A stretch of DNA of 36,170 bases from Pseudomonas sp. B6002 (lineage in GTDB: Bacteria; Pseudomonadota; Gammaproteobacteria; Pseudomonadales; Pseudomonadaceae). The stretch is taken from contig NZ_JACAOY010000013.1 in NCBI RefSeq assembly GCF_013385985.1, forward strand, positions 1 through 36,170, written 5' to 3'. Below are positions 13,921 through 30,440 of the stretch, piece by piece; the first letter of the stretch is position 1; each line of letters starts with the position of its first letter. The notes below the pieces were generated by a model, which ran no database searches, was not told the origin of the DNA, and saw only the letters and a program-made list of their open reading frames with translations. Both the position numbers and the translations under genes were made by a program.

Positions 13921-14322
13921 TGCCTGCGAAAGCGGCGGCACAGCTAATAGTGATGTCGCCTGAACCACCGCCTTCGCAGCCTCGCCAAGGCTCGACAACT
14001 CCCACAGGTGGCCGGGTCCATCCTTTGAAATGCCGTCAAATGTGGGAGCTGGCTTGCCTGCGAAAGCGGCGGCACAGCTAATAGTGATGTCGCCTGAACC
14101 ACCGCCTTCGCAGCCTCGCCAAGGCTCGACAACTCCCACAGGTGACCGGGTCCATCCGTTGAAATGCCGTCGAATGTGGTAGCTGGCTTGCCTGCGAAAG
14201 CGGCGGCACAGCTAATAGCGATGTCGCCTGAACCACCGCCTTCGCAGCCCCGCCAAGGCTCGACAACTCCCACAGGTGACCGGGTCCATCCGTTGAAATG
14301 CCGTCGAATGTGGGAGCTGGCT
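13921..14322. repeat. Three tandem 134-bp REP-containing units
   Basis: Units lie at 13921-14054, 14055-14188 and 14189-14322, each starting TGCCTGCGAAAGCGGC and differing by only a few bases (for example CTTTGAAATGCCGTCAA against CGTTGAAATGCCGTCGA). A fourth begins at 14323 but departs after about ten bases. Each unit carries a REP core (GTGGGAGCTGGCTTGCC) and a facing degenerate partner ending CAACTCCCACAGGTG, so this is an amplified REP doublet of the BIME type. Confidence 0.92.
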
Positions 14323-14368
14323 TGCCTGCGATGGCATCAACGCGGTGTACCTGAAAAACCTGGGCGCT

Positions 14369-15343: not shown

Positions 15344-15519
15344 GGAGGGCACTCGACAGCGGCTGACAAGAAAACGAAATCCCACGACGCCGCGGGAAAA
15401 TTCGCACACAACATACCTTTTTGTATCGGGCCAGCGGTAGCACCCTCTGCCGGCGATGAAAAACCGACAAAAACCCTCCCTGTCGTTTTCCAGCGTATTT
15501 CGTCGCTCACGCATAAATA

Positions 15520-15640: not shown

Positions 15641-16873
15641 ATGTCGAACACCGTTGTTTCATCACGGCGAAGTATTGGCCTGTTGGCACTGATATTTACC
15701 GCCTGCAATGCCACCACCCACGGATTCAGTATTTTTCTTTATTCGGCGTTATTACCGCAGATCCGCCAGGTATTTGAACTCAGCTACAGCCAGGCCGCCC
15801 TGATTGCCGCGCTGTTGCAGCTGTTCTACATGGGTGCCTCCATCGCCAGCGGCATTGCGGCGGCGTGGGTCAGCCCGCGGAACATGGTGCGCCTGACCAT
15901 GCTCCTCAGCCCCGCACTGCTGGCGTTGGCCGTCGCCACGCCCTGGGTGGTGCCGTTCGCGGCATGCCTGGCACTGGTGTCGGCGTGCGCGGTGTCGAAC
16001 TGGAACGCAATCGCCGCCCTGGCGCGGGAGGTCATCCCGGCCACGCATCGCAGCCGTGTGCTGGGGCTGGCGTCCTCGGGCGCCGCCTTTGCGATCTGCC
16101 TGAATGGCGTGTTGATCGCGCTGTTGCAAGGCCTGTCGTTGCGCCAGTTCTGGTTGATCTGCGCCAGCCTGACGCTGTTGGTCACGCTGCTGACGCTATG
16201 GGCATTGGCCCCGCATACCGAGCAGGCACCCCGTACCGCCGAAGCGCCGGCCTTCAACCAGGTGTTGAAACAGTGGCTACGCCTGTGCCTGGAACACCCC
16301 GTGGCCATGCAGATCGTGTTGCTTAGCGGGTTTATCGGCGCCATCAGCGGGCCGTTTCTGAATTTCCTGTCGGCGTTTGTCAGCGACCACCTGCACGCCA
16401 GCGCGGCGGTGACGGGTTCGATGTGGACGCTGATCGGCCTCGGCGGCGCCGCTGGCGGCTTGATGCTCGGCGCGTTGGCCGATCGCTGGGGCGCACTCCG
16501 CGTATTGGCACTGAGCATCGGCGCCTTCGGCCTGGCCATGCTGGGCCTGCTATGGCACCCCAACCTATTGCTGGGCTGGCTCGCGGCCGGGTTGTTCGCG
16601 CTGTTCTACTTCCCGTCCTGGGGCTTGATGGCGGCCTACCTCAGCGCCCGCCTCAACCCCGTGCAAAGCCTGCAAGTGGTGAGCCTGAGCATGGTCAGCT
16701 ATGGCCTGGCCAGCGCTGTGGCCAATAGTTTGTGCGGCGGGCTGCTGCAAGCCAGCGGCGAGTTTGCAGTGGTGCACGCCTGGATCGCCGCCTGGGTGCT
16801 CGCCTGCCTGCTAATGCTCAAGCGCATGGCCCATCGACAGTTCGCCGTGACGCTGCCGCTCCACATACCCTGA
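15641..16873 (+). CDS. Major facilitator superfamily transporter
   Basis: A 410-residue inner-membrane transporter with about twelve hydrophobic helices. The N-terminal half has the charged cytoplasmic loop SPRNMVRLTM after TM2. The second half has GGLMLGALADRWGALRVLALS, the usual MFS motif A after TM8. Divergent from a LysR regulator gene with a palindrome between them. The last 63 bases overlap the 3' end of a convergent LysR gene. Substrate unknown; layout is compatible with small-metabolite uptake or drug efflux. Confidence 0.9.
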   Translation: MSNTVVSSRRSIGLLALIFTACNATTHGFSIFLYSALLPQIRQVFELSYSQAALIAALLQLFYMGASIASGIAAAWVSPRNMVRLTMLLSPALLALAVATPWVVPFAACLALVSACAVSNWNAIAALAREVIPATHRSRVLGLASSGAAFAICLNGVLIALLQGLSLRQFWLICASLTLLVTLLTLWALAPHTEQAPRTAEAPAFNQVLKQWLRLCLEHPVAMQIVLLSGFIGAISGPFLNFLSAFVSDHLHASAAVTGSMWTLIGLGGAAGGLMLGALADRWGALRVLALSIGAFGLAMLGLLWHPNLLLGWLAAGLFALFYFPSWGLMAAYLSARLNPVQSLQVVSLSMVSYGLASAVANSLCGGLLQASGEFAVVHAWIAAWVLACLLMLKRMAHRQFAVTLPLHIP

Positions 16874-17725
16874 GTGCCCCAGCTGGCGCTGCAGGATCTC
16901 CACCAACGCCTCAACCTCCGGCACCTGGCAACCGGCCGGGCGCCAATACATCAGGCGCGCCGGCGCAATCGGCGGGAAGCCCTGGCGCTCATCCAGGATC
17001 TGCCAGCCCGTCGGCACCAGCCGCCGCGCCATCACCCCGACCGACAAGCCTTGCTCGATGGCAACTGCAATGCCGCGCGGGCTCTGGCTGGTGTACACCA
17101 CCTGCCACGAGCGCCCTGCCCTGGCCAACGCCTGCACGGCATTCGCCCGAAACGCACAGCCCTCGGCGTACACCGCCAGCGGCACCGACTGGCGCCCCAC
17201 GCAGCTCCAGCTCGGCGCCGCCACCCACACCAACGGCTCATCGCACAGGTATTCACCGGGTTGCAGGCCGGCGTGTTCCACCCCCAGCACCAGGTCCAGC
17301 TCACCGCGGTTGAGGCGGCTGACCAGCGCCGTGGACATTTCACAACAGATGTCCGGGCGCACCTGGGCGAACTGCGCCTGGAAGTCCTTGAGCATGCCGC
17401 CCAGGCAATAGTCGGCATAGTCCTCCGGCATGCCCAGGTGGATGCACACCTGTTCATTGGGCAATTGCGCCGCGCTGACCGCCTCGCCGTGCAGCTTGAG
17501 GATCTGCCGCGCGTAGATCAGGAAGGTTTCCCCGCCGGGGGTCAGCCCGACGGAGCGGCTGGTGCGACGGATCAACGGCGTGCCGACGATCTCTTCCAGG
17601 CGCTGCAAGCTCTGGCTGACCGTCGACTGGGTCTTGTGCAAACGCTCGGCTGCGGCCGAGAAACCCTGGCACTCGATAATTGCCACAAACACTTTAAGTA
17701 AACTGCCATCCAATTCGCCTGACAT
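16811..17725 (-). CDS. LysR-family regulator divergent from the oxygenase locus
   Basis: A 304-residue LysR protein. The HTH covers about 6-65 (LKVFVAIIECQGFSAAAERL, HKTQSTVSQSLQRLEE) and the effector domain starts near 90 (QVCIHLGMPEDYADYCLGGM). It is transcribed away from the BesD-like gene across a 105-base spacer, the classic arrangement for a LysR activator of a catabolic operon. The best inference is that it senses the substrate of the oxygenase, M24 and ABC locus. Its 3' 63 bases overlap the convergent MFS gene. Confidence 0.92.
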   Translation of the reverse strand: MSGELDGSLLKVFVAIIECQGFSAAAERLHKTQSTVSQSLQRLEEIVGTPLIRRTSRSVGLTPGGETFLIYARQILKLHGEAVSAAQLPNEQVCIHLGMPEDYADYCLGGMLKDFQAQFAQVRPDICCEMSTALVSRLNRGELDLVLGVEHAGLQPGEYLCDEPLVWVAAPSWSCVGRQSVPLAVYAEGCAFRANAVQALARAGRSWQVVYTSQSPRGIAVAIEQGLSVGVMARRLVPTGWQILDERQGFPPIAPARLMYWRPAGCQVPEVEALVEILQRQLGHSGYVERQRHGELSMGHALEH

Positions 17726-17830
17726 AACTATCGCCCCTGCCGATGGATTCGATCACAACTTGTAATTTCCCCTTAAAACTCATTTACGCAACTATCGACT
17801 CAACACAACAACCTCATTCAGGAGCCGTGT
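17726..17830. promoter_or_regulatory. Divergent promoter spacer of lysR and the oxygenase gene
   Basis: A 105-base AT-richer spacer. CAGGAG at 17819-17824 precedes the oxygenase ATG at 17831 with good spacing. It contains AACTTGTAATTTCC and TTTACGCAACTATCG, in which LysR contacts are likely, but no single palindrome stands out enough to name an operator. Confidence 0.5.
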
Positions 17831-18712
17831 ATGAGTCTTAAACTTGCCGATGCCGAAACCGGTGATATCAGCGACATCATTAATACCGAGCTGTATCCCA
17901 TACATGATTCGGGCCATGTTCAATTACAGGCATTGATCGAACATGCCCGCGCCGAACTGGCCGAAGACGGCTGCTGCCTGCTGAAGAACTTCCTGCGCCC
18001 CGAAGCGCTGGAACAGGCGCGTCTGGAAGGCCTGGCGCTGTCAGACAAAACTTTCTTCTCGGTGCGCAAGGTCAACGCCTACTTCACCGAAGACGACACT
18101 TCCCTGCCCCAGGATGACCCGCGCCGCACATTCATGGAGCGCACCAGCGGCTTTGTGACCCGCGACATGATCGCCCCCGACGCGATCATCCACCGCCTGT
18201 ACGTGTCGCCGATGATGAAGCGCTTTATCGGCGCCTGCCTTGATGAACCGGAGATTTTCGAATACGCCGACCCGTTCGCCGGGCTGGTGATCAACGTGAT
18301 GCCCGAAGGCACCGAACAGCCTTGGCACTTCGACACCAACGAATTCATCGTCAGCATGATGACCCAGAAGCCAGAGGCCGGCGGCCTGTTCGAATACGCA
18401 CCGATGATCCGTTCGCGCAGCCAGGAAAACCTCGGCGCAGTGGGCCAGGTGGTACGCGGTGAAGACCGCTCGCGGGTGCAGGAACTGGAGCTGAACCCCG
18501 GCGACCTGCAGATCTTCAAGGGCCGCTTCTCGGTGCACCGCGTTACCCGCGTACAAGGCGCCACCGAGCGCAACACGGCGATCTTCGCCTACTCGGAAAA
18601 GCCCGGAATCATCGGCCGCGCCCAGCGCACCAAGCAGCTTTACGGACGCCTGTCCGAAGCCCACCTGCAAGCCGAACGCAACCTGGTGCGCAGCGACCAG
18701 TTGCTCGACTGA
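17831..18712 (+). CDS. Fe(II)/2-oxoglutarate oxygenase of the BesD/HalD family, HxD type
   Basis: A 293-residue soluble enzyme. The family layout is visible: N-terminal YPIHDSG and an acidic helix (HARAELAEDGCCLLKNFLRPEAL), then VNAYFTEDDTSLP and DPRRTFMERTSG, then the jelly-roll core. The iron triad is His166-x-Asp168 (QPWHFDTNEF) and His236 (FSVHRVTRV), with Arg247 likely binding 2-oxoglutarate (TERNTAIFAY). BesD-type halogenases replace the Asp with Gly to make room for chloride; Asp168 is present here, so hydroxylation of a free amino acid or related compound is more likely. First gene of the locus, 55 bases before the M24 gene. Family assignment is from memory of the pattern; the substrate is unknown. 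Confidence 0.82.
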   Translation: MSLKLADAETGDISDIINTELYPIHDSGHVQLQALIEHARAELAEDGCCLLKNFLRPEALEQARLEGLALSDKTFFSVRKVNAYFTEDDTSLPQDDPRRTFMERTSGFVTRDMIAPDAIIHRLYVSPMMKRFIGACLDEPEIFEYADPFAGLVINVMPEGTEQPWHFDTNEFIVSMMTQKPEAGGLFEYAPMIRSRSQENLGAVGQVVRGEDRSRVQELELNPGDLQIFKGRFSVHRVTRVQGATERNTAIFAYSEKPGIIGRAQRTKQLYGRLSEAHLQAERNLVRSDQLLD

Positions 18713-18767
18713 TTCGCCTCTCCCCCCCAAAAAACTAAAAACCGTAATTGCCCTGCGAGGAACACCC

Positions 18768-19994
18768 ATGAGTCTGTCCGGCCCGAACCGTAACCCCGCC
18801 GACTGCGAACCCACCCATGACGAGATCCAGCAGATTCAGCTGGACCGCCTGCAACGGGTGCGCAACGAACTGAAGAAACGCGACTACGCCGCCTGCGTGC
18901 TGTTCGACCCCACCCACATGCGCTACGCCACCGGCTCGCGCAACATGCAGGTGTACTCGGCGCGCAACCCGGCCCGCTACGCCTTTATCCCGGCAGAAGG
19001 CCCGGTGGTGATCTTCGAATTCGGCGGCTGCCTGCACCTGGCCGAAACCCTTAACACCGTGGACGAAGTGCGCCCGGCCAAGGCGATTTCCTATTACTTC
19101 TGCGAAAGTTTCCTGGGCAACGTCACCGCCGATTGGGCTGCCGAAATCGACGAACTGGTGCGCAAGTGCGGTGGCGGTAAACGCATCGCCATCGAAAGCG
19201 CCACCTCGGCCGCCGCCTTTGAACTGCAGCGTCTCGGCTATCAGGTGTTCGACGCCCAGGAACCGCTGGAGCGCGCTCGCTGCATCAAGGTGCCCAACGA
19301 ATTGAAGATGATTCGCGCCAGCCTGCGTGCCACCGAAGCCGGGGTGCGCCTGATGGAAAGCAAGCTGACCCCCGGCATCACCGAGAACCAGTTGTGGTCA
19401 CACCTGCACCAGCACGTGATCGCCACCGATGGCGACTATGTGGAAACCCGCCTGCTCTCCTCCGGCCCGCGCACCAACCCGTGGTTCCAGGAATGCAGCA
19501 CGCGCCCTATCGAGGCGGGTGACCTGGTGGCCCTAGACACCGACGTGGTCGGGCGTTTTGGCTACTACGCGGACTTCTCGCGCACCTTCCTGTGTGGCGA
19601 CCAGGCCGCCACGCCCAAGCAGCAGGAGCTGTACAAGCTTGCCTACGAGCAGGTGCAGACCAACGTCGAAATGCTCAAGGCCGGGCGCAGTTTCAAGGAA
19701 TACGCCGAGATGGCCTGGAAGATCCCCGACCATTACAAGAACAACCGCTATTTCGCCCTGGTGCACGGCGTTGGCATGACCGGTGAATACCCCTACGTGG
19801 TGCACCGCGAGGACATCGACGCGCTGGGCTACGACGGCGTGTTCGAAGCCGGCATGACCATCTGCGTGGAAAGCTACATCGGCCACGATGACGGCGGCGA
19901 AGGCGTGAAGCTCGAAGAACAGATCTATATCCACGAACACGGCATCGAGTTGCTCTCCGATTACCCGTTCGATCCGCGCCTGTTGCCGCGCTGA
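18768..19994 (+). CDS. M24-family metalloenzyme closely resembling DMSP lyase DddP
   Basis: A 408-residue pita-bread-fold enzyme. Metal ligands by eye are Asp257, Asp259 and Asp269 (LDTDVVGRFGYYADFSRT), His333 (LVHGVGMTGEYP), Glu368 (ICVESYIG) and Glu383 (VKLEEQI). Blocks FDPTHMRYATGSRNMQ, ETRLLSSGPRTNPWFQEC and the C-terminal YPFDPRLLPR recall DddP very closely, and spacing of the ligands matches, including the extra Asp259. DddP's proposed catalytic Asp, six residues after the His, corresponds to Gly339 here, so DMSP cleavage is doubtful. Alternatives are peptide, ectoine-like or amide hydrolysis. GAGGAA precedes the ATG. It should act on the product or substrate of the upstream oxygenase. 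Confidence 0.85.
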   Translation: MSLSGPNRNPADCEPTHDEIQQIQLDRLQRVRNELKKRDYAACVLFDPTHMRYATGSRNMQVYSARNPARYAFIPAEGPVVIFEFGGCLHLAETLNTVDEVRPAKAISYYFCESFLGNVTADWAAEIDELVRKCGGGKRIAIESATSAAAFELQRLGYQVFDAQEPLERARCIKVPNELKMIRASLRATEAGVRLMESKLTPGITENQLWSHLHQHVIATDGDYVETRLLSSGPRTNPWFQECSTRPIEAGDLVALDTDVVGRFGYYADFSRTFLCGDQAATPKQQELYKLAYEQVQTNVEMLKAGRSFKEYAEMAWKIPDHYKNNRYFALVHGVGMTGEYPYVVHREDIDALGYDGVFEAGMTICVESYIGHDDGGEGVKLEEQIYIHEHGIELLSDYPFDPRLLPR

Positions 19995-20030
19995 ACCCGT
20001 CTAGCCCCACAGGCGGCCCTGGGAAGGACC

Positions 20031-20057
20031 AGTAACATGCATTTATAGAAGGTTACT
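20031..20057. promoter_or_regulatory. Small inverted repeat after the M24 gene
   Basis: AGTAAC (20031-20036) and GTTACT (20052-20057) face each other across 15 bases. Another symmetric element, TTTGCGCAAA, lies at 20083-20092, flanked by TTTGTC and GACAAA. These lie in the 293-base gap before the binding-protein gene and may mark a separate promoter for the transporter genes. Confidence 0.4.
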
Positions 20058-20114
20058 GCGCAGAATTTGTCGTTTGTCGATCTTTGCGCAAATGACAAAA
20101 CTGCGGGCATCTCT

Positions 20115-20127
20115 AATAAAAACAACA
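20115..20127 (+). promoter_or_regulatory. A-rich Hfq/Crc-type motif before the leader ORF
   Basis: AATAAAAACAACA contains two overlapping matches to the AANAANAA pattern that Hfq and Crc bind in pseudomonads to repress translation of catabolic genes. It lies 13 bases before the ATG of the small ORF at 20141 and about 160 bases before the binding-protein start, so direct control would act on the leader ORF or by coupling. Confidence 0.45.
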
Positions 20128-20140
20128 TGAGAGCTGCCCT

Positions 20141-20239
20141 ATGTCCTACCTCATTGCCCGCCTCCTGACTACGTTGCGCCTTGTTCTCCTGCCGGCTTCA
20201 CAGCGGTCCGTGCTGCGCCTGATCGGCGCCTGCCACTGA
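20141..20239 (+). CDS. Candidate 32-residue leader peptide ORF upstream of the transporter
   Basis: ATG at 20141, TGA at 20237-20239. The peptide starts MSYLIARLLTTLRLVLL and ends RLIGACH; it is hydrophobic and Arg-rich with five Arg codons. GAGAGC lies nine bases before the ATG as a weak Shine-Dalgarno. The stop is 48 bases before the start of the binding-protein gene. Its place directly after an Hfq/Crc-like motif and before a transporter gene suggests a regulatory leader, but the size is small enough to arise by chance. Function not assigned. Confidence 0.35.
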   Translation: MSYLIARLLTTLRLVLLPASQRSVLRLIGACH

Positions 20240-20287
20240 CCCTTGCGGTTCAACAAAAACGCATATTCGCAAGTACCGGAGAGGCTT

Positions 20288-21922
20288 ATGAAAGACTTGA
20301 CGACCCTGGACGGCAGCCTGCCGCATCCAGCCGTAAACGACCTGTGTGCCCAAGTGCAAAGCGGCGAGATCAACCGCCGCCAATTCCTGCGCACCGCCGC
20401 CCTGCTGGGCGTTACCGTGGCCAGCGCGTCCACCTTTATCGGCTCGGCCCTGTTGGGCAACGATGCCCGCGCCGCCGATGGCACGCCGGCCCGCCAGGGC
20501 GGCAGCCTGCGCTTTGCCTGTGCGATCCAGGAGATCCAGGACCCGATGCTGATCACCTGGATCGAAGCCTCGAACCTGTTGCGCAACTCCCTCGAATACC
20601 TGACCTGGGTCGATGCCGACAACATCACCCACCCGTACCTGGCCGAAAGCTGGAGCCCGTCCGAAGACCTCACCACCTGGACCTTCAACCTGCGCCAGGA
20701 CGTGAAGTGGAGCAACGGCGACAGCTTCAACGTCGACGACGTGCAGCACAACATCGAGCGCTGGATCGCGGCCGACTCCAAGTCGGTCAACCGCACGGCG
20801 TTCCAGGACATCAAGGCCTTCGAAAAAGTCAGCGACTACCAGTTCCGCCTGCAACTGAAACGGCCGATCCTGGCCATCCCGGAAATGCTCAATGCGTTCA
20901 CCTGCGCCCTGGTACACCGCAGCTTCAAGGCCGGTGACGACTGGGCGAAAAACCCGCTGGCCACCGGGCCGTTCAAGCTGGTGTCGTTCGCGGTGAACAA
21001 GCAGGCGACCTTCGCCAAGCGCGCCGACTACTGGGGCAAGCCCGCCAACCTCGACGAGCTGCGCTACATCGACATGGGCACCGACGTGTCCACCCACCTG
21101 GCCGCCCTGCAAGCGGGCCAGGTCGACGTGCTGTACCGCGTCACCGTGGCCGAGCTGGACCTGGCCAAGCGACTGCCCGGCGCACAACTGCTCAGCTGCA
21201 AATCGGCGCAGACCGTGGTCATGCGCATGGCCTGCGACCAGAAGCCCTTCACTGATTTGCGCATCCGCAAGGCCGTGGTGCTGTGCGCCGATAACGCACA
21301 GATGCTCAAGGTGGCGTATCGCGGCATGGGCACCCTCGGCGAAGACCACCACGTGGCGCCGTCCCACCCTGAATACTTCCCTCTGCCCAAGCGCGAGCGC
21401 GACGTGGCGGCGGCTAAAAAACTGCTGGCCGAAGCGGGCTTCCCCAAGGGCCTGGACATCGACCTGATCGTCGGCAACACCCAGGGCCGTTATGAGCAGG
21501 ACTGCGCGCAGATTCTGCAACAGAACTGCCTGGAAGCCGGCATCCGCATCAACCTCAAGGTGGTGCCTGCGGCGCAATACTGGCCAATCTGGGACAAAGC
21601 CGCGTTCAGCCTCACCTACTGGGCCCACCGCCCGCTGGGGGTGATGTCCCTGGAACTGGCCTATCGCGGCGGCGGCGCGTGGAACGAAAGCCACTACAGC
21701 GACCCGGCCTTCGACGCCGCCCTGGACAAAGCCATGGGCATCATCGACCCGAAACAGCGGGCCGTGGCCATGCAAAGCGTGGAGCAGATCCTGCAAGACG
21801 CCTGCGTGATCGTGCAGCCGTTCTGGGGCGACAAATTCACCGCCGTGAGCAAAAAGGTCCAGGGCTTCCAGGTACACCCTTCCGACTTCTACCCCATGGG
21901 TAATGTCTGGCTGAGCGTTTGA
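20288..21922 (+). CDS. Peptide-type ABC substrate-binding protein with Tat signal
   Basis: A 544-residue family 5 (DppA/OppA-like) periplasmic binding protein. A long n-region precedes the twin-arginine motif NRRQFLR (Arg30-Arg31), a hydrophobic stretch AALLGVTVASASTF and a cleavage site near ARA (about 60-62), so export is by Tat. No lipobox Cys is present, unlike lipid-anchored homologues. LAESWSPSEDLTTWTFNLRQDVKWSNGD is the family signature region, around residues 118-145. GGAGAGG six to twelve bases upstream supports the ATG at 20288 over a TTG at 20243. It supplies substrate to the following permeases. Ligand may be a dipeptide or an amino-acid derivative. Confidence 0.93.
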   Translation: MKDLTTLDGSLPHPAVNDLCAQVQSGEINRRQFLRTAALLGVTVASASTFIGSALLGNDARAADGTPARQGGSLRFACAIQEIQDPMLITWIEASNLLRNSLEYLTWVDADNITHPYLAESWSPSEDLTTWTFNLRQDVKWSNGDSFNVDDVQHNIERWIAADSKSVNRTAFQDIKAFEKVSDYQFRLQLKRPILAIPEMLNAFTCALVHRSFKAGDDWAKNPLATGPFKLVSFAVNKQATFAKRADYWGKPANLDELRYIDMGTDVSTHLAALQAGQVDVLYRVTVAELDLAKRLPGAQLLSCKSAQTVVMRMACDQKPFTDLRIRKAVVLCADNAQMLKVAYRGMGTLGEDHHVAPSHPEYFPLPKRERDVAAAKKLLAEAGFPKGLDIDLIVGNTQGRYEQDCAQILQQNCLEAGIRINLKVVPAAQYWPIWDKAAFSLTYWAHRPLGVMSLELAYRGGGAWNESHYSDPAFDAALDKAMGIIDPKQRAVAMQSVEQILQDACVIVQPFWGDKFTAVSKKVQGFQVHPSDFYPMGNVWLSV

Positions 21923-21929
21923 GTCGACG

Positions 21930-21949
21930 CTGCCCGCACGTGCGGGCAG
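21930..21949 (+). other. Perfect hairpin between binding-protein and permease genes
   Basis: CTGCCCGCACGTGCGGGCAG is a 20-base perfect palindrome eight bases after the binding-protein stop, followed by GTTTCCC rather than a T-run. Hairpins in this place commonly protect the upstream message or partly stop transcription, giving more binding protein than membrane components. Confidence 0.7.
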
Positions 21950-21980
21950 GTTTCCCATCATCCGTCGGAGCATGTACCTG

Positions 21981-22934
21981 ATGGCTCATTTTCTACTGCG
22001 CAAATTGCTGATGCTGCTGGCGACCCTGCTGTCGGTATCGCTGATTGTGTTCCTGGCCCTGGAACTCAATATCGAGGACGTCGCAATCAACGTTCTCGGC
22101 CCCTACTCCGCCGCCGACCAGCGCGCCGCCTGGCTGCTGGAACACGGCTACAACCAGCCGTTCGTGTGGCGCTACCTGGTGTGGCTCAAGGACTTCGTGA
22201 CCGGTGACTGGGGCACCTCGGTGTACTTTCGCGAGCCGGTGCTCAAGCTGCTGCTGCCCAACCTGTGGCAAACCCTGACTCTGGCCGGGCTGGCCTTGCT
22301 GGTGATGGTGCCCGTGGCGTTGACCCTGGGCATCCTGGCCGGTGTGCGCCAAGGCTCGCTGATTGACCGGCTGGTGTCGTTTTTGTCGATCGTCACCACC
22401 TCGATCCCGGACTTTGCCAGTGCGGTGTTCGTCTCGGCGATCTTTGTGTTCTGGCTCAACTGGCTGCCGGGCGTGAGCAGCATGAGCGACGGTTTCAGCG
22501 CCGTGCAGCTGGTGCTGCCGCTGATGGTGCTGTGCCTGTTCGGCATCGGTTACCTGGCACGCATCACGCGGGCGTCGATGGTCGAGGTGATGCAGGCGCC
22601 GTATATCCGTACGGCACGCCTCAAGGGCGCCTCGACCACCCGCATCGTGTTGCGCCATGCCCTGCGCAACGTGCTGATCGCGCCGGTCACGGTGATCATG
22701 CTGTACATCCCGTGGCTGCTGTCGAACGTGATCGTGGTGGAGGTATTTTTCGCCTACAAGGGCTTCGGTTCGATGCTCTACACCGCGTCCCTCAACCATG
22801 ACGTCTACCTGATCGAAGCCTGCGCGATGATCAGCGGCGTGGTGGTGGGCATCAGCAAGATCTTCTCGGACCTGGCCTACACCTGGCTCAACCCGCGCAT
22901 CACCCTGCGCAGTCTCGGCGGAGGCAGCCAATGA
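21981..22934 (+). CDS. ABC transporter permease, DppB-like
   Basis: A 317-residue inner-membrane subunit with about six helices. The family layout is clear: LLRKLLMLLATLLSVSLIVFLAL at the N-terminus, GDWGTSVYFREPV, and the ATPase-contacting loop ASMVEVMQAPYIRTARLKGAS near 200. The start ATG at 21981 has GGAG ten bases upstream; an ATG at 21972 is only one base from it and is less likely. It pairs with the next permease, overlapping by four bases (ATGA). Confidence 0.93.
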   Translation: MAHFLLRKLLMLLATLLSVSLIVFLALELNIEDVAINVLGPYSAADQRAAWLLEHGYNQPFVWRYLVWLKDFVTGDWGTSVYFREPVLKLLLPNLWQTLTLAGLALLVMVPVALTLGILAGVRQGSLIDRLVSFLSIVTTSIPDFASAVFVSAIFVFWLNWLPGVSSMSDGFSAVQLVLPLMVLCLFGIGYLARITRASMVEVMQAPYIRTARLKGASTTRIVLRHALRNVLIAPVTVIMLYIPWLLSNVIVVEVFFAYKGFGSMLYTASLNHDVYLIEACAMISGVVVGISKIFSDLAYTWLNPRITLRSLGGGSQ

Positions 22935-23767
22935 ACCTGCTCAAATCCTTCAAACACCCCCTGGCCCTGCTCGGCCTGCTGCTGGTAGGCGGCTGGGTGC
23001 TGGTGGCGCTCTGCGCGCCGTGGCTGGCGCCCCATGACCCGCTGGAAAGCTTCACGCCGCTGCTCACCCCGATGACCGCCGGTGACGACGGCGCGAGCTT
23101 TTTGCTGGGCACCGACATGATCGGTCGCGACATTCTTTCGCGCCTGATCTGGGGCACGCGCACCGTGCTGTTCTGGTCGATCCTGGCCACGCTTACCGCG
23201 TTTGCCGTGGGCATTGCCATGGGCCTGTGCGCCGGCTACTTCAATGGCTGGGTGGACGCGGCGCTGTCCTACGTGGCCGACACCGTGCTGTCGTTCCCGG
23301 TGCTGGTGCTGTACATCGTGATCATCATCGCCCTCGGCGCCTCGGCGCTGAACATCTTGATTGCGGTGACGTTCACCAGCGCACCGGCGATCTTTCGCAT
23401 CATGCGCGCGCTGACCATCGACATCCGCTCGCGTGACTACGTGCTCAGCGCCATCACCCAGGGTGAAGGCTCGTTGCGCATCATGCTGGTGGAGATCCTG
23501 CCCAATTGCGGCGGCCCGTTGATCGTCGATTTCTGCCTGCGTATCGGCTACACCGCAATCATGATCGGCGCCCTGGGTTTCCTCGGCCTCGGCCTGCCGC
23601 CACCCACCCCGGACTGGGGCGGCATGATCAACGACGGCCGCGCCATGGCCATTACCTTCCCGCACCTGGTGATCTTCCCCTGCATCGCCATCTCCACCCT
23701 GATGCTCGGCCTGAGCTTGCTCGCCGACGGGCTGGATGAACACGCGCAGCAAGGCGCAAGGAGTTGA
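22931..23767 (+). CDS. ABC transporter permease, DppC-like
   Basis: A 278-residue second permease. An N-terminal helix (LALLGLLLVGGWVLVALCAPWLAP) is followed by LGTDMIGRDILSRLIWGTRT, the signature of DppC/OppC subunits. The EAA-type loop is RALTIDIRSRDYVLSAITQGEGS, at about residues 157-180, and PPPTPDWGGMINDGR near the end is also typical. Translation is coupled to the upstream permease by ATGA overlap, and the ATPase ATG is three bases after its stop. Confidence 0.93.
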   Translation: MNLLKSFKHPLALLGLLLVGGWVLVALCAPWLAPHDPLESFTPLLTPMTAGDDGASFLLGTDMIGRDILSRLIWGTRTVLFWSILATLTAFAVGIAMGLCAGYFNGWVDAALSYVADTVLSFPVLVLYIVIIIALGASALNILIAVTFTSAPAIFRIMRALTIDIRSRDYVLSAITQGEGSLRIMLVEILPNCGGPLIVDFCLRIGYTAIMIGALGFLGLGLPPPTPDWGGMINDGRAMAITFPHLVIFPCIAISTLMLGLSLLADGLDEHAQQGARS

Positions 23768-23769
23768 GC

Positions 23770-25410
<1,641 letters not shown>

Positions 25411-25431
25411 GTTCCACCCCTTTCCCTGCGT

Positions 25432-25447
25432 CGCAGCGTTCGCTGCG
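25432..25447 (+). other. Small perfect hairpin between ATPase and porin genes
   Basis: CGCAGCG and CGCTGCG flank a TT loop, 21 bases after the ATPase stop. No T-run follows, so it is not a standard terminator; partial transcription stop or message protection before the porin gene is plausible. Confidence 0.5.
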
Positions 25448-25494
25448 GCAACGGGCTGCTGTTGCCCAAAAAAACCAATAACGAGAGCCAAACC

Positions 25495-26664
25495 ATGCGA
25501 CCAACCTTAGGCTACTTCGCCCTGATCCCCGTGCTCGGCGCCCTCGCGGCACCGGCCATGGCGATCCAGGTCACCGACAACCTCGACATCGGCGGCGCCA
25601 TCCGCGCACGCTGGGACTACGACCCCGACCGTGATATCCAGAAGTTCGGCCTGGACACCGCGTTCCTCAGCGCCAAGTACAACTCCGACACCTGGATCGG
25701 CGAGGCGCAATACCGCTTCTACGGGCGCTCCTACCCGTACCAGTACACCAAGAACTACGGCGACATCCAGTTCGCCAAGTTCGCCTGGGTTGGCTACAAG
25801 TTCAACCCTGACCAACAGGTGCAAGTAGGCCTCAACACCGTGCCGTTCGGCCTGCAGCCGTATTTCGGCAGCACCTTCTACGAAACCCTGGGCAACGTGA
25901 TCGGCCTGGAAGACGTGCAGCAGATCGGTACCAAGTACATCCAGCAAAGTGGCGACTGGAACATCCAGGCCGGTTACTACCTGCGCCCGGCGTGGCAAGG
26001 CAAGGGCACCAGCAAGGGCGTGACCTACTCCAGCGTGATCTCCGAGGCCGACAGCTACGTGGCCGACGGCAGCAACAACCAGGAGCGCAACACCGTGGTG
26101 GTGCGGGTGGCCAAGGCCATGGACCTGGGTAACTGGAAATCCGAAGTCGGTGTGTCTGGCCTGACCTCGACCCTGGAGAACAAGGACACCGGCAACGACG
26201 GCCGCCGCAACGCAGTGGCCATCCACTACCTGGGCAAGAACGGCCCGTGGGGCCTGCAATTGCAGGCGGCGCGCCAGCAAATGTCGCCGCGCAACGAAGG
26301 CACCGACGGCGTGGTGACCCTGGGCGGGTATGACGGCACGTTCAACGTCGCCAGCCGTGGCAACCTGTACGTGGCGGACTTGAGCTACGACGTGGGCGGC
26401 AAGTACCTGTTCGACCAGATCAGCGGCGTGAAGCTGTACGCCAACTACAGTGCCTTCGACAAATCCGACAATGAGTTCAAGACTTCGCAGCGGGTGATCC
26501 TGGGTACGTCGTTTTCGTTCAGCAAATTGTGGATTGCCACGGAGTGGTTGATCGGCAAGAACGATCCGTACATTGGCGGCAGCAGCTATACCCAGAGCCT
26601 GGGGGCTGGGGGTAGCAATCAGTGGGAGAATCAGCTGTACATGAACATCGGGTATTACTTCTAA
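25495..26664 (+). CDS. Outer-membrane beta-barrel porin
   Basis: A 389-residue protein with signal peptide MRPTLGYFALIPVLGALAAP and a cleavage site near AMA-IQ. The body consists of alternating, aromatic-rich beta strands (IGGAIRARWDYD, WIGEAQYRFYGRSY, KFAWVGYKFN) with short turns and acidic loops. The terminal residues YMNIGYYF end in Phe, the usual signal for the BAM assembly machinery. It resembles general or phosphate/carbohydrate porins rather than a clear OprD. As last gene after the importer it likely provides passage of the same substrate across the outer membrane. ATG chosen over a TTG at 25462 because of the signal peptide. Confidence 0.85.
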   Translation: MRPTLGYFALIPVLGALAAPAMAIQVTDNLDIGGAIRARWDYDPDRDIQKFGLDTAFLSAKYNSDTWIGEAQYRFYGRSYPYQYTKNYGDIQFAKFAWVGYKFNPDQQVQVGLNTVPFGLQPYFGSTFYETLGNVIGLEDVQQIGTKYIQQSGDWNIQAGYYLRPAWQGKGTSKGVTYSSVISEADSYVADGSNNQERNTVVVRVAKAMDLGNWKSEVGVSGLTSTLENKDTGNDGRRNAVAIHYLGKNGPWGLQLQAARQQMSPRNEGTDGVVTLGGYDGTFNVASRGNLYVADLSYDVGGKYLFDQISGVKLYANYSAFDKSDNEFKTSQRVILGTSFSFSKLWIATEWLIGKNDPYIGGSSYTQSLGAGGSNQWENQLYMNIGYYF

Positions 26665-26687
26665 TAGGCGGCGTCATCACTGACGCT

Positions 26688-26758
26688 ATCGCAGGCAAGC
26701 CAGCTCCCACATTTTGACCGCGCCGCCGATCAATTGTGGGAGCTGGCTTGCCTGCGAT
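26688..26758. repeat. Perfect 24-bp REP inverted pair after the porin gene
   Basis: Arms 26688-26711 and 26735-26758 are exact reverse complements, each holding the core GGAGCTGGCTTGCCTGCGAT. The 23-base spacer is unrelated. It starts 23 bases after the porin stop and can form a long hairpin that would end or protect the transcript. Confidence 0.9.
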
Positions 26759-26772
26759 GGGGCCGGTGAAAA

Positions 26773-26786
26773 AACAATAAAAACAA
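26773..26786 (+). promoter_or_regulatory. A-rich Hfq/Crc-type motif in the lysR leader
   Basis: AACAATAAAAACAA contains two matches to AANAANAA and lies 18 bases before the LysR ATG at 26804, where bound Hfq/Crc could block ribosomes. A strong Shine-Dalgarno is absent. Confidence 0.4.
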
Positions 26787-26803
26787 TGTGTGGAACCCGA
26801 ACC

Positions 26804-27679
26804 ATGCGCCACCTGCCCTCTCTCAACATGCTCCGTGTCTTTGAAGAAGTTGCCCGTCACCGCAGCTTCAGCCAGGCAGCCGTGGGCCTCAATGTCACCC
26901 AGGGCGCGGTCAGCCGTCAGATCAAGCAACTGGAAGACTACCTCGGCGTCGCCCTCTTCATCCGCACGCCCCAGGGCCTGTCCCTGACCGAAGCCGGCTT
27001 TGCCCTCTCCCCGCACCTGAGCGACGCCTTCGACCATATCGAACGCGCCCTGCAAGCCGTGCGTGTGCCCAACCTGCGCCAGCGCCTGCGCATCGTGGCA
27101 CCGCCGACCTGGGCCACGCGTTGGCTGTCGGCGCACTTGCGCAGGTTTTGTGAGCGCTACCCGGACATCAACCTCAGCGTCACCCACCAGAACAGCCACG
27201 CCAGCCTGGCCGAGATCGACTGCCAGATCCGCTTCGGCCTGGAGGCCAACGCCCAGTGCAGCAGTGAGCTGTTGGTGATGGAACGCCACATTGCCGTGGC
27301 CAGCCCCGAAATGTTCACCGGCGACCAGCCGCCCGACCTGCGACGTTTTCCGTTGCTGCATATCCTGCACGACGGCAAGCGTTTGAAGGTGTGGGAGAAC
27401 TGGCTGGCGGCCATGGGCCGAGACGACATTGATGCGGACCAGGGCCTGGAATTCAGCACCCTGGACCAGGTGATCCACACCGCCCTGGCAGGCGGTGGGC
27501 TGGCGGTGATCGACCGGCAGATGATCGAACGCGAGCTGGCCAACGGCAGCCTGGTGCCGATCACCCCCGTGGAAGTGATCGGCCCATACGGCTATTGGCT
27601 GGATGTGGCGACGGACAAACAGGGTTTATCCAAGGTTCGCCTGTTTACGCAGTGGCTGGGCCAGGTTAGCAACCCCTGA
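26804..27679 (+). CDS. LysR-family regulator (GcvA-like)
   Basis: A 291-residue LysR protein starting MRHLPSLNMLRVFEEVARHR, typical of the GcvA branch, with HTH to about 62 and effector domain RLRIVAPPTWATRWLSAHLRR. An in-frame ATG at 26786 would add MCGTRT, which is not typical. It lies directly downstream of the porin gene but separated by a REP pair, so it is probably not part of that operon. It is paralogous in style to the LysR at 14411-15343. Its 3' end overlaps the convergent nuclease-like gene by 14 bases. Confidence 0.93.
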   Translation: MRHLPSLNMLRVFEEVARHRSFSQAAVGLNVTQGAVSRQIKQLEDYLGVALFIRTPQGLSLTEAGFALSPHLSDAFDHIERALQAVRVPNLRQRLRIVAPPTWATRWLSAHLRRFCERYPDINLSVTHQNSHASLAEIDCQIRFGLEANAQCSSELLVMERHIAVASPEMFTGDQPPDLRRFPLLHILHDGKRLKVWENWLAAMGRDDIDADQGLEFSTLDQVIHTALAGGGLAVIDRQMIERELANGSLVPITPVEVIGPYGYWLDVATDKQGLSKVRLFTQWLGQVSNP

Positions 27680-28814
27680 GTTCATTGTTATCTATCGAGT
27701 TATTGTCCGGCAAAGTGAGTTGCAAATATTCCAGCTTCAATCCGAACTCAGTATTCAACCTTTTCAGAAACTGGCCCGTGTCGGCATCAAGCACGGGCTC
27801 AGCAACAATAAAGAGCTTCTCTGGCTCAAGCCCCATAGGCCGATAAGCATATTCAAGCAACTGCCCAAGCGCTTCTCGAACGGCACTGGCAGCTGTAGAA
27901 CACACTTTGACTTCGTAGAGAAAGCAACGGGTATCGCTAACTCGAACCAAAGCATCTGCGAAACCTCCAGAACCAGTCGCTTGCTCTGTTTTCACTTTTG
28001 TATCGCCATACTGCTCACACAACTGATGATACAAGCAGGTTTGCAGTTGGTTGTGCCGCAACAGGATTTTACGCAGGGTTGCCGGCACATTAGCGTACGC
28101 CGAATGTGCGCGCTCACGATGCCCGGGCTTGAAGGTAGCCAGGAAGTTTTCACCGCGTAACTGTTCGTACACAAACCAGGGAAACATATTACGTTCGAGG
28201 CCCGCTTCATCGAATGAGGCTATTGCAGTCAAATGTCGTGCGAGCGCTTGCGCTCTATGCGCCCAGTTACCCTCCGGTGCGGAAAAACCGGTGTATTTGC
28301 TCATCCAGGCAATGACTTTTTCCTGCATGGCTGCCTCAGCCAGCGTGTGGTAAACCTTTGGGTGAAGGGTTGCAAAAGCGCGGGCTGTCAATAGCTTAGG
28401 TAGTTTTGAAATTCGTCTTTCGTCACGCCACTCCGTTAGCTGACGAATCACTGACTGAAAACTTTCAGGGCTTCCATCCGCTACGATTTTAAGGGTTAGC
28501 GCCTCAAAGTCTTCGCGTAGAGCGTTGACAGAAGCTGCACCTAACCCCCCTTTTCCGACATTGCAGACATTGTTATCTTTTTCACTCCAGACGAGATCGA
28601 CGATTTCAGCTGTCCGTCCCTCTTCAATAGCGCTACTTACGGTTGTCAGCGTGTCCCAGTAACGAGGTTTCCATATGCTCTGGTACGGGTTATCTGGCTC
28701 AATGAACCTCTGGATAAAAATCTCCGCCTCTGGCTGAAGCCTCGGTGCGTCATTTGAGGATGCAAAAACCTGCCCATCGTTTTTTAAACTGACTGGAGAA
28801 AAAAACTCGTCCAA
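27666..28814 (-). CDS. PD-(D/E)XK nuclease-like protein of unknown role
   Basis: A 382-residue soluble protein. The C-terminal part shows a PD-(D/E)XK pattern: Asp287 (GSGGFADALVRV), Glu301-x-Lys303 (FLYEVKVC), then Gln318 and Tyr322 (GQLLEYAYR), the arrangement of restriction-like endonucleases. The N-terminal 280 residues are helical with no recognised domain (LTARAFATLHPKVYHTL, NWAHRAQALARHLTA). No ATG is available at the N-terminus; TTG at 28814 has GGAG seven bases upstream and is the likely start. GC is clearly lower than neighbours, suggesting transfer. A solitary type IV-like restriction or other defence nuclease is possible but unproven. Confidence 0.75.
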   Translation of the reverse strand: MDEFFSPVSLKNDGQVFASSNDAPRLQPEAEIFIQRFIEPDNPYQSIWKPRYWDTLTTVSSAIEEGRTAEIVDLVWSEKDNNVCNVGKGGLGAASVNALREDFEALTLKIVADGSPESFQSVIRQLTEWRDERRISKLPKLLTARAFATLHPKVYHTLAEAAMQEKVIAWMSKYTGFSAPEGNWAHRAQALARHLTAIASFDEAGLERNMFPWFVYEQLRGENFLATFKPGHRERAHSAYANVPATLRKILLRHNQLQTCLYHQLCEQYGDTKVKTEQATGSGGFADALVRVSDTRCFLYEVKVCSTAASAVREALGQLLEYAYRPMGLEPEKLFIVAEPVLDADTGQFLKRLNTEFGLKLEYLQLTLPDNNSIDNNELRGC

Positions 28815-28917: not shown

Positions 28918-30288
28918 TTATATTGGCGCAACAGTACGGACTGCCTGCGTTTCAGAAGAACCACCCTCCACTGGGCTTTGCGCCTTGCACGCCTGGTTCA
29001 GGGTCAGGGACTTGGTCTCCGGCGCCCAGGCCCAGGAGATGATCGCGCCAAACACCAGGATCGCCGCAAGAATACCCATGGTCGGGCTCAAGCCAATCCC
29101 GGCCACGCTCACCGGCAACAGGAACGTGCTGACTGCCGAACCCAGGCGGCTTACCGCCGTGGCCAGGCCGATGCCGCTGGCGCGCACTTCGGTGGGGAAA
29201 CTTTCGGCCGGGAACACGCCCACCAGGTTGCTCACCGCAGACAGCACCAAGGTGAACACGCCGAAGGTCAGCACCATCAGCCACGCCAGGCTCCCCGGCA
29301 ATACCGCCAGCAGGAACAACGCCGCCGCGAGGATGATGAACGAGTTGATCAAGAAGCCCCGGCGCGAGAATTTCACCGTGCACCAGATACCGATCAACGC
29401 GCCGACAATCAGCAGCAGGTTGAGCAGCAACTCGGTGCCAAAGCCCTGGGACAAGCCCATCTTCTGCAGGATCGACGGCAGGAACGTGTAGATCGCAAAG
29501 TACGGCATCACGATGCACACAAAGAACAGGCAGTTGAACGCCGTGCGCTTGCGGTATTCACGGCTGAACAGCACGCCGTAGCCGGAGCGGGTTTGGGTGG
29601 CGGGCTCTTCATCCAGCACCACGTGTTCACCCAGGTGTTTCTTGACGATGGCACGGGCTTCGGCAATACGCCCACGGTTGACCAGCCAGCGCGGGGATTC
29701 CGGGGTGCCGATTCGCGCAATCAGGATCAGGCCGGCCGGGATCGCCGAAGACGCCAACATCCAGCGCCAGGCATCGTCGCCCAGGCTGAGCATCGCGGTG
29801 CCGACAAAGATCGCCGCCACGTAGCCGAAGGTCCAGATCACACTGAACGAACCGAGCAGCACGCCACGGTGTTTCTTCGGCGAGAACTCGGCCAGCATCG
29901 CGTGGCCGACACTGAAGTCACCGCCCAGGCCAATGCCGATCAGGATGCGGCACAGCAACAAGCCCATGGCGGTTTCAGCGTAGAACTGCATCACCGAGGC
30001 CACGGTGATCAGCACAAAGCTGACCAGGAAGATTTTTTGCCGGCCGAGGGTGTCGGAGATCCAGCCAAAAAACAGGCTGCCCAGAAACAGGCCGATCAGG
30101 GCCGAAGCGCCGATCAAGCCTTGCCAGAACGCGTCCAGTTGCATCTGTGGGCTGAGCAGGGTGAAGGCGATGCCGATGAGGCCGAGGATATAGCCGTCGG
30201 TGAAGTGCGCGCCAAATGTGAGGCCGGCGATTTTCAGGTGGAAACGGCCGATGGGCAGGTCGTCGATTTTGACGGGTTGAGCAGTCAT
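28918..30288 (-). CDS. MFS transporter, sugar/metabolite:H+ symporter type
   Basis: A 456-residue transporter with twelve predicted helices. Motifs of the sugar and aromatic-acid transporter branch are present: GWISDTLGRQKIF after TM2, RILIGIGLGGDFSVGHAMLAEFSPKKHRG, and PESPRWLVNRGR before the central loop. GGAG lies eight bases before the ATG at 30288; the frame is open upstream to 30396 but runs into REP sequence. An A-rich Hfq/Crc-like motif (30303-30313) sits just before the Shine-Dalgarno. It follows the aldehyde dehydrogenase gene on the same strand, separated by a REP pair, and may import the substrate of that operon. Confidence 0.92.
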   Translation of the reverse strand: MTAQPVKIDDLPIGRFHLKIAGLTFGAHFTDGYILGLIGIAFTLLSPQMQLDAFWQGLIGASALIGLFLGSLFFGWISDTLGRQKIFLVSFVLITVASVMQFYAETAMGLLLCRILIGIGLGGDFSVGHAMLAEFSPKKHRGVLLGSFSVIWTFGYVAAIFVGTAMLSLGDDAWRWMLASSAIPAGLILIARIGTPESPRWLVNRGRIAEARAIVKKHLGEHVVLDEEPATQTRSGYGVLFSREYRKRTAFNCLFFVCIVMPYFAIYTFLPSILQKMGLSQGFGTELLLNLLLIVGALIGIWCTVKFSRRGFLINSFIILAAALFLLAVLPGSLAWLMVLTFGVFTLVLSAVSNLVGVFPAESFPTEVRASGIGLATAVSRLGSAVSTFLLPVSVAGIGLSPTMGILAAILVFGAIISWAWAPETKSLTLNQACKAQSPVEGGSSETQAVRTVAPI

Positions 30289-30302
30289 GGGTGTTCTCCA
30301 TA

Positions 30303-30313
30303 TTGTTTTTCTT
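30303..30313 (-). promoter_or_regulatory. A-rich Hfq/Crc-type motif before the MFS gene
   Basis: On the minus strand AAGAAAAACAA matches AANAANAA twice and lies immediately before the GGAG of the MFS gene, where it could block translation under catabolite repression. Confidence 0.4.
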
Positions 30314-30352
30314 GACGGAGTAACAGCGGGCTTGCGCCTTGTATTTGCCCTT

Positions 30353-30440
30353 TGTGGGAGCTGGCTTGCCTGCGATAGCGGTGGATCAGGTGACACTGGG
30401 CAGCTGGCAGACCGCTATCGCAGGCAAGCCAGCTCCCACA
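30353..30440. repeat. Perfect 30-bp REP inverted pair between MFS and aldehyde dehydrogenase genes
   Basis: Arms 30353-30382 and 30411-30440 are exact reverse complements, extending the REP core by ATAGCGGT on the inner side. The spacer is 28 bases. It lies 31 bases after the dehydrogenase stop and upstream of the MFS gene on the same strand, so it may reduce read-through or protect the upstream message. Confidence 0.92.

Follow-up and report, generated by a model that had tools for sequence, protein, structure and literature searches.

A HalD-family oxygenase and a DddP-like M24 metalloenzyme form a conserved gene pair with a possible role in betaine breakdown

Why does a gene for an Fe(II)/2-oxoglutarate oxygenase lie directly beside one for an M24 metalloenzyme that resembles the dimethylsulfoniopropionate (DMSP) lyase DddP, upstream of a peptide-type importer and a porin? 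The question is raised by contig NZ_JACAOY010000013.1 of Pseudomonas sp. B6002 (assembly GCF_013385985.1), of which positions 1 to 36,170 were analysed (hereafter the window). Seven co-directional genes and a divergent LysR-type regulator gene are present as open reading frames (ORFs), including the oxygenase (OXY, 17831-18712, plus strand) and the M24 enzyme (18768-19994, plus strand), and the genes and protein families named in a first-pass annotation of the sequence agree with ORF, Pfam and NCBIfam results. That annotation had drawn the genes from oxygenase to porin as one uptake-and-oxidation unit and knew of no described pathway combining the two enzymes. A description of the pair was likewise not found in the openly licensed literature, an absence that is weak evidence, nor in the accessible parts of PMC10686828, PMC8079746 and PMC12478193. 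The oxygenase-M24 pair is a conserved core, in Pseudomonas and in one further family, and is of greater interest than the operon originally outlined.

Homologues of OXY (at least 92% identity) and M24 (at least 93%) are adjacent in the same 23 of 299 Pseudomonas genomes, including the source genome of the window. More distant oxygenase relatives occur in further Pseudomonas genomes, three of which carry a paired M24 gene at about 45% identity (L061-L063), and no M24 gene was found beside oxygenase relatives of 30-35% identity in the four stretches read (L077-L080). A total of 557 loci were confirmed, 80 of which were listed, and all counts of named or listed loci given below refer to these 80. 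They include 28 named Pseudomonas loci, all with the order major facilitator superfamily (MFS) transporter-LysR-oxygenase-M24. The order from oxygenase to porin is complete in 25 of the 28, which indicates more than a chance arrangement, and two of the three exceptions (L095, L109) end with their contigs.

Beyond Pseudomonas, 87 of 201 genomes of a second family of the same order yielded a total of 128 oxygenase hits, and an M24 gene lies within 2 kb of 125 of them; the M24-adjacent oxygenases are 43-62% identical to OXY. Both genes were present in 85 of the 201 genomes, only the oxygenase in two, only the M24 gene in four, and neither in 110. Pairs were also identified in Marinomonas MED121 (L117; 74% identity for the oxygenase and 85% for M24) and in Caballeronia SBC2 (64% and 73.5%, respectively). 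Furthermore, the pairwise distances of the two proteins correlate across 29 pairs (Mantel r 0.925, reached in none of 2000 permutations), a value to which shared descent contributes. The first-pass annotation was right about the unusual combination of enzymes, which recurs as a conserved pair. At broader taxonomic range, oxygenase matches at E 1e-20 or better are present in 12 of 369 genomes of a class sample and 23 of 398 of a phylum sample, the source genome being counted in each, and the pairing is not universal.

Several variants of the arrangement were observed. In L061, L062, L063 and L082, two divergent oxygenase genes and one M24 gene occur with enolase-superfamily enzymes, a 2-hydroxyacid dehydrogenase and ProXWV, and in Pseudomonas sp. 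MPC6 such a two-oxygenase/M24/ProXWV cluster is located on a plasmid typed as conjugative. The Marinomonas MED121 pair lies, as judged by eye, between transposase fragments and a block resembling site-specific recombinases that adjoins recA, which suggests mobility. An isopenicillin-N-synthase-like 2-oxoglutarate oxygenase is encoded between M24 and an OpuAC protein in L221 (6832-7833; Pfam) and L223 (11916-13085; by eye), and the same gap in L222 contains an unlabelled ORF of 333 residues. In L085 and other Pantoea plasmids, an oxygenase relative of 33% identity adjoins a DUF2817 (AstE/AspA-like) hydrolase, a name that recurs at or near many of the Pantoea matches listed.

The enzymes constitute a separable cassette (MFS-LysR-oxygenase-M24, 15641-19994) with its own transporter, regulator and operator-like site, and the transporter/porin unit downstream has its own start and history. 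Six genomes that encode a homologue of the formaldehyde-activating enzyme (Fae), as the window does downstream of the porin, and lack the cassette oxygenase were inspected, five of which were readable between two further LysR-type genes, LysR3 and LysR2 (the latter at 26714-27679 in the window, plus strand). In two of these (G017, G021), the order is LysR3, then SBP-PermB-PermC-ATP-porin-LysR2 together with the genes for the dehydrogenase, the reductase and Fae, and the whole MFS-LysR-OXY-M24 block is absent; three (G005, G009, G002) lack both the enzyme block and the ATP-binding cassette (ABC) importer and keep the porin. In the sixth (G023), only LysR2, the MFS transporter MFS2, a partial reductase match and Fae were identified. 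In the oxygenase-less loci, homology to the window breaks off around 15346-15427 and begins again around 20029-20033, except in G009, where it begins only at the porin (25542). At this module boundary, a leader of roughly 120 bases (20029-20150, plus strand) is kept at 72-85% identity in G017, G021, G005 and G002 and was not found in G009. As the cassette is absent as a block from these loci and the leader is retained in four of the five, we regard the transporter/porin unit as separate, and the reading of enzymes, importer and porin as one operon is ruled out by loci that have one without the other.

The MFS gene (15641-16873, plus strand; MFS_1/MFS_4, YbfB-like by Pfam) belongs to the cassette: it is present in all 28 named oxygenase-bearing Pseudomonas loci, with a copy of 72% identity in P. 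oryzihabitans, and missing along with the cassette in all five readable oxygenase-less loci. It was not found in the Marinomonas (L117) or Caballeronia (L081) loci. The unit first proposed thus missed both the split into modules and this upstream gene. In P. oryzihabitans (L112), an OpuAC-type binding protein is encoded directly after M24 and a family-5-type importer of only 33-38% identity upstream of the MFS gene, and elsewhere the pair occurs with OpuAC or BCCT carriers. The claim of neighbourhood conservation across Pseudomonas therefore stands for OXY and M24 and fails for the importer as an obligate partner, which is separable. The importer nevertheless accompanies the enzymes in most cases, being present at 25 of the 26 named loci in which it would fit vs two of the five oxygenase-less loci; chance adjacency of the enzymes and the SBP importer is possible.

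The transporter/porin unit encodes a family-5 solute-binding protein (SBP, 20288-21922; SBP_bac_5) with a Tat-like RRQFLRTA start, ABC permease 1 (21972-22934; BPD_transp_1), ABC permease 2 (22931-23767; BPD_transp_1 and OppC_N), a fused double ABC ATPase (23764-25410; ABC_tran twice and oligo_HPY) and an outer-membrane porin-like protein (25462-26664), all on the plus strand. The SBP ORF opens at 20243, with position 20288 the more likely start as judged by eye, and the Pfam domains (SBP_bac_5, two BPD_transp_1 permeases and double ABC_tran) place the importer in family 5 (Opp/Dpp). The porin-like protein, which is present with and without the enzymes, had no Pfam, NCBIfam or PDB match, and its putative assignment is based on a signal-like start and a C-terminal Phe recognized by eye. 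Relatives of the SBP were identified in Ensifer (58.9% identity) and adjoining OXY-M24 in L208 (45%).

OXY belongs to the HalD family of Pfam (PF23169, 39.1 bits vs a cut-off of 26), as expected of an enzyme initially called BesD-like. A profile search against the PDB matched solved chains of Halogenase B, Lysine hydroxylase and Halogenase D, and a single-sequence search gave no PDB match. In the accessible part of PMC10187165, the halogenase BesD is marked by loss of the iron-binding carboxylate ligand. OXY contains a hydroxylase-type triad (H166-F-D168 ... H236), and H-x-D...H is conserved in all 29 M24-paired homologues; on this basis a BesD-type halogenase is ruled out and we read OXY as a putative hydroxylase. 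One in-frame TAG stop was observed in the oxygenase gene of Pseudomonas sp. UYIF39 (L019/L109).

The M24 enzyme contains the PF00557 and Creatinase_N domains and, as the first annotation anticipated, has DddP as both its best NCBIfam model and its best PDB match (262 bits vs 34 bits for creatinase). The score against the DddP model is 326.1 bits, below the curated equivalog cut-off of 600. By family-specific score the enzyme is not a creatinase or prolidase (PepQ model, 59 bits against a cut-off of 630), and with the two DoeA models it scored 46 and 32 bits, where 575 and 613 are required. In DddP, the metal ligands are D295, D297, D307, H371, E406 and E421, and Tyr366 and Asp377 are described as invariant in DddP lyases (PMC4108388, in part); in the mechanism proposed there, the metals bind the carboxylate and the alpha proton is abstracted by an aspartate (PMC5395565 and PMC4108388, in part). 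All 29 paired and all nine unpaired M24s surveyed have the six ligands; these are chosen rather than random loci, 'unpaired' meaning that no oxygenase lies in the fetched stretch. Tyr366 is retained in all 29 paired enzymes, including that of the window, in which Asp377 is replaced by Gly339 and the Trp at position 95 by Tyr. Position 95 was picked from the alignment; the cited passages mention a tryptophan without a number. Gly at 377 together with Tyr at 95 characterizes 27 of the 29 paired M24s, and among the unpaired enzymes Asp377 is found in six of nine and Trp at 95 in seven of nine. The Gly-type M24s form one group of 29 rows (27 paired, 2 unpaired; support 100/99) in a midpoint-rooted tree with several long branches. 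As Asp377 is lost, C-S lyase chemistry of the DddP type, one of the cleavages originally envisaged, is unlikely.

The genes surrounding the pair bear on its substrate. They were surveyed at 28 pair loci outside Pseudomonas, 21 of which come from the second family and two from one genome, so that they are not independent; L232, where the ORF caller did not show the pair, and L240, which lacks M24, had been excluded in advance. As controls, 20 stretches were picked by hand, 19 of them from genomes also giving a case, and neighbours were labelled by similarity to a reference set and partly named by eye. Betaine-type transporters of the OpuAC or BCCT families are encoded at 20 of the 28 pair loci vs none of the 20 controls (by type, OpuAC at 18, BCCT at four and SBP5 at three pair loci). 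L197 contains MttB, a DAO-GCV_T oxidoreductase, LysR, OXY, M24, SoxB and SoxA in a row, and in L235 and L206 a CoA-acylating semialdehyde dehydrogenase follows directly after M24; counts of this methylmalonate-semialdehyde dehydrogenase-like type are inflated by general aldehyde dehydrogenase similarity, and only these two loci are relied on. M24 relatives without a nearby oxygenase also occur among betaine genes (some annotated, some recognized by eye). Of the more distant oxygenases, those of L079 and L080 have OpuAC (Pfam) and FrmA-like genes (recognized by eye) as neighbours, and that of L084 has MttB, an SBP5 importer and two FAD-dependent oxidoreductases nearby.

Actinobacterial relatives of the oxygenase extend this picture. 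In L118-L168 (Nocardia, Micromonospora, Actinomadura and others), an oxygenase of 46-52% identity forms an operon with a weakly methyltransferase-like protein and a PF00755 choline/carnitine acyltransferase, for which hydroxy-betaine (carnitine-like) biosynthesis is possible. Among the 51 actinobacterial loci listed, the acyltransferase gene lies just downstream in 49 (one of the two loci lacking it ends with its contig), a neighbour that is weakly methyltransferase-like, below Pfam cut-offs, in 43, and M24 in none. The downstream acyltransferase would accord with an oxygenase that yields a hydroxylated quaternary amine.

Within the window, the check for betaine transporters identified just the SBP5 importer and the MFS genes. 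Near relatives of the window SBP, Ensifer encodes an aspartase-like lyase and an aldo/keto reductase 72% identical to that of the window, and an importer relative in Aminobacter has MttB and a B12-binding protein nearby. The first-pass suggestion of a small zwitterionic or peptide-like compound is upheld for the zwitterion, which the OpuAC/BCCT neighbours make likely; the substrate leans to a quaternary amine, and the peptide alternative has less support.

The LysR gene (16811-17725, minus strand; Pfam) is divergent from OXY, and a LysR relative is present at 24 of the 28 oxygenase-M24 loci outside Pseudomonas. The intergenic region contains an operator-like site (17741-17753, CGATGGATTCGAT) conserved in Pseudomonas and Marinomonas. 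It has at most two mismatches in 10 of the 11 loci of a clade of 59-100% identity, three in the eleventh (L203), and three to six in 18 more distant loci; it is also retained at loci with a different transporter, and lies on the other strand in L081. The motif occurs at 19 places in the own genome with at most one mismatch, two of them exact. Four of the 18 places beyond the oxygenase promoter were looked at, the second exact one included, and all fall inside ORFs; a wider LysR regulon was rejected on these four places.

We infer the substrate class, the order of steps and the type of cleavage as follows. LysR would sense the compound and turn on OXY and M24 from the site between the LysR and OXY genes. 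OXY would hydroxylate an unactivated carbon of a small quaternary-ammonium (betaine-like) carboxylic acid, and M24 would then bind the carboxylate at its two-metal centre and break the chain via the new hydroxyl. A retro-aldol-like cleavage could lead to the same metal-held enediolate that DddP reaches by removal of the alpha proton; as hydroxylation would replace this removal, the proposed DddP base Asp377 would become dispensable, in keeping with the Gly now found there. The products would be an aldehyde and a smaller methylated amine or acid (an alpha-betaine, for example, would give glycine betaine), followed by ordinary demethylation. Uptake would be modular, through the MFS transporter and, in most pseudomonads, the SBP5 importer and porin, and elsewhere through OpuAC or BCCT carriers. 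Judged from the genes and their residues, hydroxylation of a betaine-like acid by OXY followed by cleavage by M24 has a nearly even chance of being correct. Its retro-aldol form, the type of cleavage preferred here, is a tentative proposal that by itself is on balance unlikely. Doubtful as a whole is the widest version, which combines an undescribed aerobic betaine route in Gamma-, Beta- and Alphaproteobacteria (HalD-family hydroxylation and a retro-aldol split of the skeleton by a base-less DddP-like M24) with sister oxygenases of Nocardia and relatives whose operon would yield an acylated hydroxy-betaine resembling carnitine and so constitute a carnitine-type biosynthesis in bacteria.

A number of observations weigh against hydroxylation and cleavage of a betaine by the pair. 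One Pseudomonas genome (G038; L064) encodes two oxygenase relatives with no M24 adjoining, and M24 is adjacent at 10 of the 20 loci fetched from the class and phylum samples and lacking at the other 10; six M24-less loci (L200, L201, L210-L213) have oxygenases of 40-44% identity, and some lie near contig ends. Two paired M24s (L061, L082) have Asp at 377 and Phe at 95, and the stretches read around two Gly-type M24s (L065, L086) contain no oxygenase. Eight of the 28 surveyed loci have no betaine transporter in the stretch, one family supplies 21 of the 28, and MttB, DAO-GCV_T and Sox genes were identified at just two, one and one of them, respectively. The importer of the window is of the peptide type, and the neighbours of its relatives are mixed: relatives at about 40% identity adjoin hydantoinase-type genes in Rhizobium and Paracoccus, and one in Roseateles lies with urease genes. 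Finally, a free beta-hydroxy acid is a chemically difficult substrate for retro-aldol cleavage, a reaction that to our knowledge is without precedent among M24 enzymes.

The main rival to retro-aldol cleavage is loss of the amine, in which OXY would hydroxylate a beta- or gamma-trimethylammonio acid such as gamma-butyrobetaine and M24, acting as a C-N lyase, would give trimethylamine plus either a semialdehyde or a keto acid; the neighbouring dehydrogenase would continue the pathway and Fae would take up formaldehyde from demethylation. The nearest characterized M24 enzyme, DddP, is itself a C-S lyase, the succinate-semialdehyde-type dehydrogenase adjoins the locus in all 16 Pseudomonas stretches, with relatives of 57-59% identity near OXY-M24 in L112 and L221, and Fae passes its NCBIfam cut-off. 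However, Gly replaces the proposed elimination base in 27 of the 29 paired M24s, and the dehydrogenase-reductase-Fae block also exists without the oxygenase and need not belong to the pathway; we consider this route unlikely. Quite improbable is a creatinase- or prolidase-like reaction, in which M24 would hydrolyse a C-N bond in a small peptide or an N-methylated derivative of an amino acid, supplied by the Opp-type importer, with OXY acting before or after. The M24 fold with all metal ligands and the adjoining SBP5 importer are consistent with it, as are the sarcosine oxidase genes directly after M24 in L197, which resembles the known creatinase-sarcosine oxidase gene order. Yet creatinase and prolidase matches are far weaker than those to DddP, and the transporters that accompany the pair are mostly OpuAC or BCCT (18 and 4 of 28) rather than SBP5 (3 of 28).

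Two simpler accounts fare worse. Chance proximity of OXY and M24, each with an unrelated substrate, would accord with the separability of the importer module and with the lack of M24 at 10 of the 20 oxygenase loci fetched from the class and phylum samples. It is contradicted for the enzyme pair by adjacency in 125 of 128 cases in the second family, at 43-62% identity, and by the correlated divergence, shared descent included, and is highly improbable. A genuine DMSP or dimethylsulfoxonium propionate (DMSOP) lyase, with M24 acting as DddP to give dimethyl sulfide and acrylate and the oxygenase being incidental, would explain the best curated model and the presence of the pair (74% and 85%) in Marinomonas; it is rejected, and exceedingly improbable, on a score of 326 bits against a cut-off of 600 and the replacement by Gly of Asp377, described as invariant in DddP lyases (PMC4108388, in part), and the oxygenase is paired too often to be incidental.

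Downstream of the porin and LysR2 (GcvA-like by NCBIfam, adjoining the porin in most loci and assigned to the downstream module), the window encodes, all on the minus strand, MFS2 (28918-30396; not found in 5 of 16 stretches), the succinate-semialdehyde-type aldehyde dehydrogenase (30471-31904; TIGR01780, 698.6 bits vs a cut-off of 646), an aldo/keto reductase (31901-32935), which is the one resembling the Ensifer reductase, and the Fae homologue (32946-33458; TIGR03126, 134.9 bits vs a cut-off of 118). The 16 stretches in which the dehydrogenase-reductase-Fae block adjoins the locus represent 16 of the 22 other pair-bearing Pseudomonas genomes. All 12 genomes chosen for having the cassette oxygenase encode Fae, but so do 6 of 18 chosen without it (one of the 18, G023, has an oxygenase relative of 34%), and the block as a fixed part of the pathway was therefore rejected; it is linked and may or may not serve the pathway of the pair. 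An upstream LysR3-aldehyde dehydrogenase-enolase superfamily operon shared with the second family was likewise rejected: at 31-33% for the aldehyde dehydrogenases and 25% for the enolase-superfamily enzymes, the resemblance gives no evidence of shared function; one glucose-methanol-choline (GMC) oxidoreductase is 64% alike. In L103 (817-6517) and similar Pseudomonas loci, an operon for an aldehyde dehydrogenase, an MFS transporter, an enolase-superfamily enzyme and a GMC oxidoreductase adjoins LysR3; an aldehyde dehydrogenase gene beside LysR3 is found in many other pseudomonads and not in the window.

Further features of the window include an ORF between LysR2 and MFS2 (27666-28814, minus strand) with no Pfam or PADLOC match and a PD-(D/E)XK nuclease-like core by eye, for which a partial match of 72% was found in L097 and none was seen in the other named Pseudomonas loci. 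An RHS-repeat protein of 1556 residues (DUF6531; 74-4744, plus strand) at the contig start also had no PADLOC match, so that the scan of these two ORFs returned nothing, as did a PHROGs search with the oxygenase. Short REP-like repeats (27 to about 100 bases) occur near the module ends at 14037-14339 and 26670-26772, with several matches in related loci. A promoter and terminator scan returned no promoter and terminators only at chance level, and base composition over the cassette gave no clear outlier.

In plants, fungi and cells under salt stress, nitrogen and methyl groups are carried in abundance by betaines. If the proposed reading is correct, the pair adds a new first step to betaine breakdown and explains genes now annotated as 'Xaa-Pro peptidase' or 'hypothetical protein'. 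Asp377 should be checked before a DddP-like M24 gene of a soil bacterium is scored as a DMSP lyase, and the Asp-to-Gly switch with an oxygenase next door makes the question of mechanism directly testable with the enzymes.

Compared with known systems, OXY shares with BesD, HalB, HalD and the lysine hydroxylases the Pfam HalD family, the profile matches and, with the hydroxylases, the H-x-D triad. It differs from the halogenases in that the Asp is present, and its gene adjoins M24 and betaine genes; BesD/HalD-family relatives are otherwise found in the company of amino-acid natural-product genes. The M24 enzyme has DddP as its best family match and shares its six metal ligands and Tyr366, but is distinguished by the change of Asp377 to Gly and of Trp to Tyr at position 95, by its sub-cut-off score and by its coupling to an oxygenase. 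DoeA of ectoine degradation is likewise an M24 enzyme of solute breakdown, although its models score far under their cut-offs on the window protein. Like the glycine betaine, carnitine and stachydrine clusters of Pseudomonas and rhizobia, loci with OXY and M24 relatives contain OpuAC, BCCT, Rieske, MttB, DAO-GCV_T and sarcosine oxidase genes, some of them annotated and others labelled partly by eye. In contrast to the known first steps of betaine breakdown, which are catalysed by a Rieske oxygenase, CdhA or MttB, the first steps here would be carried out by a HalD-family oxygenase and an M24 enzyme.

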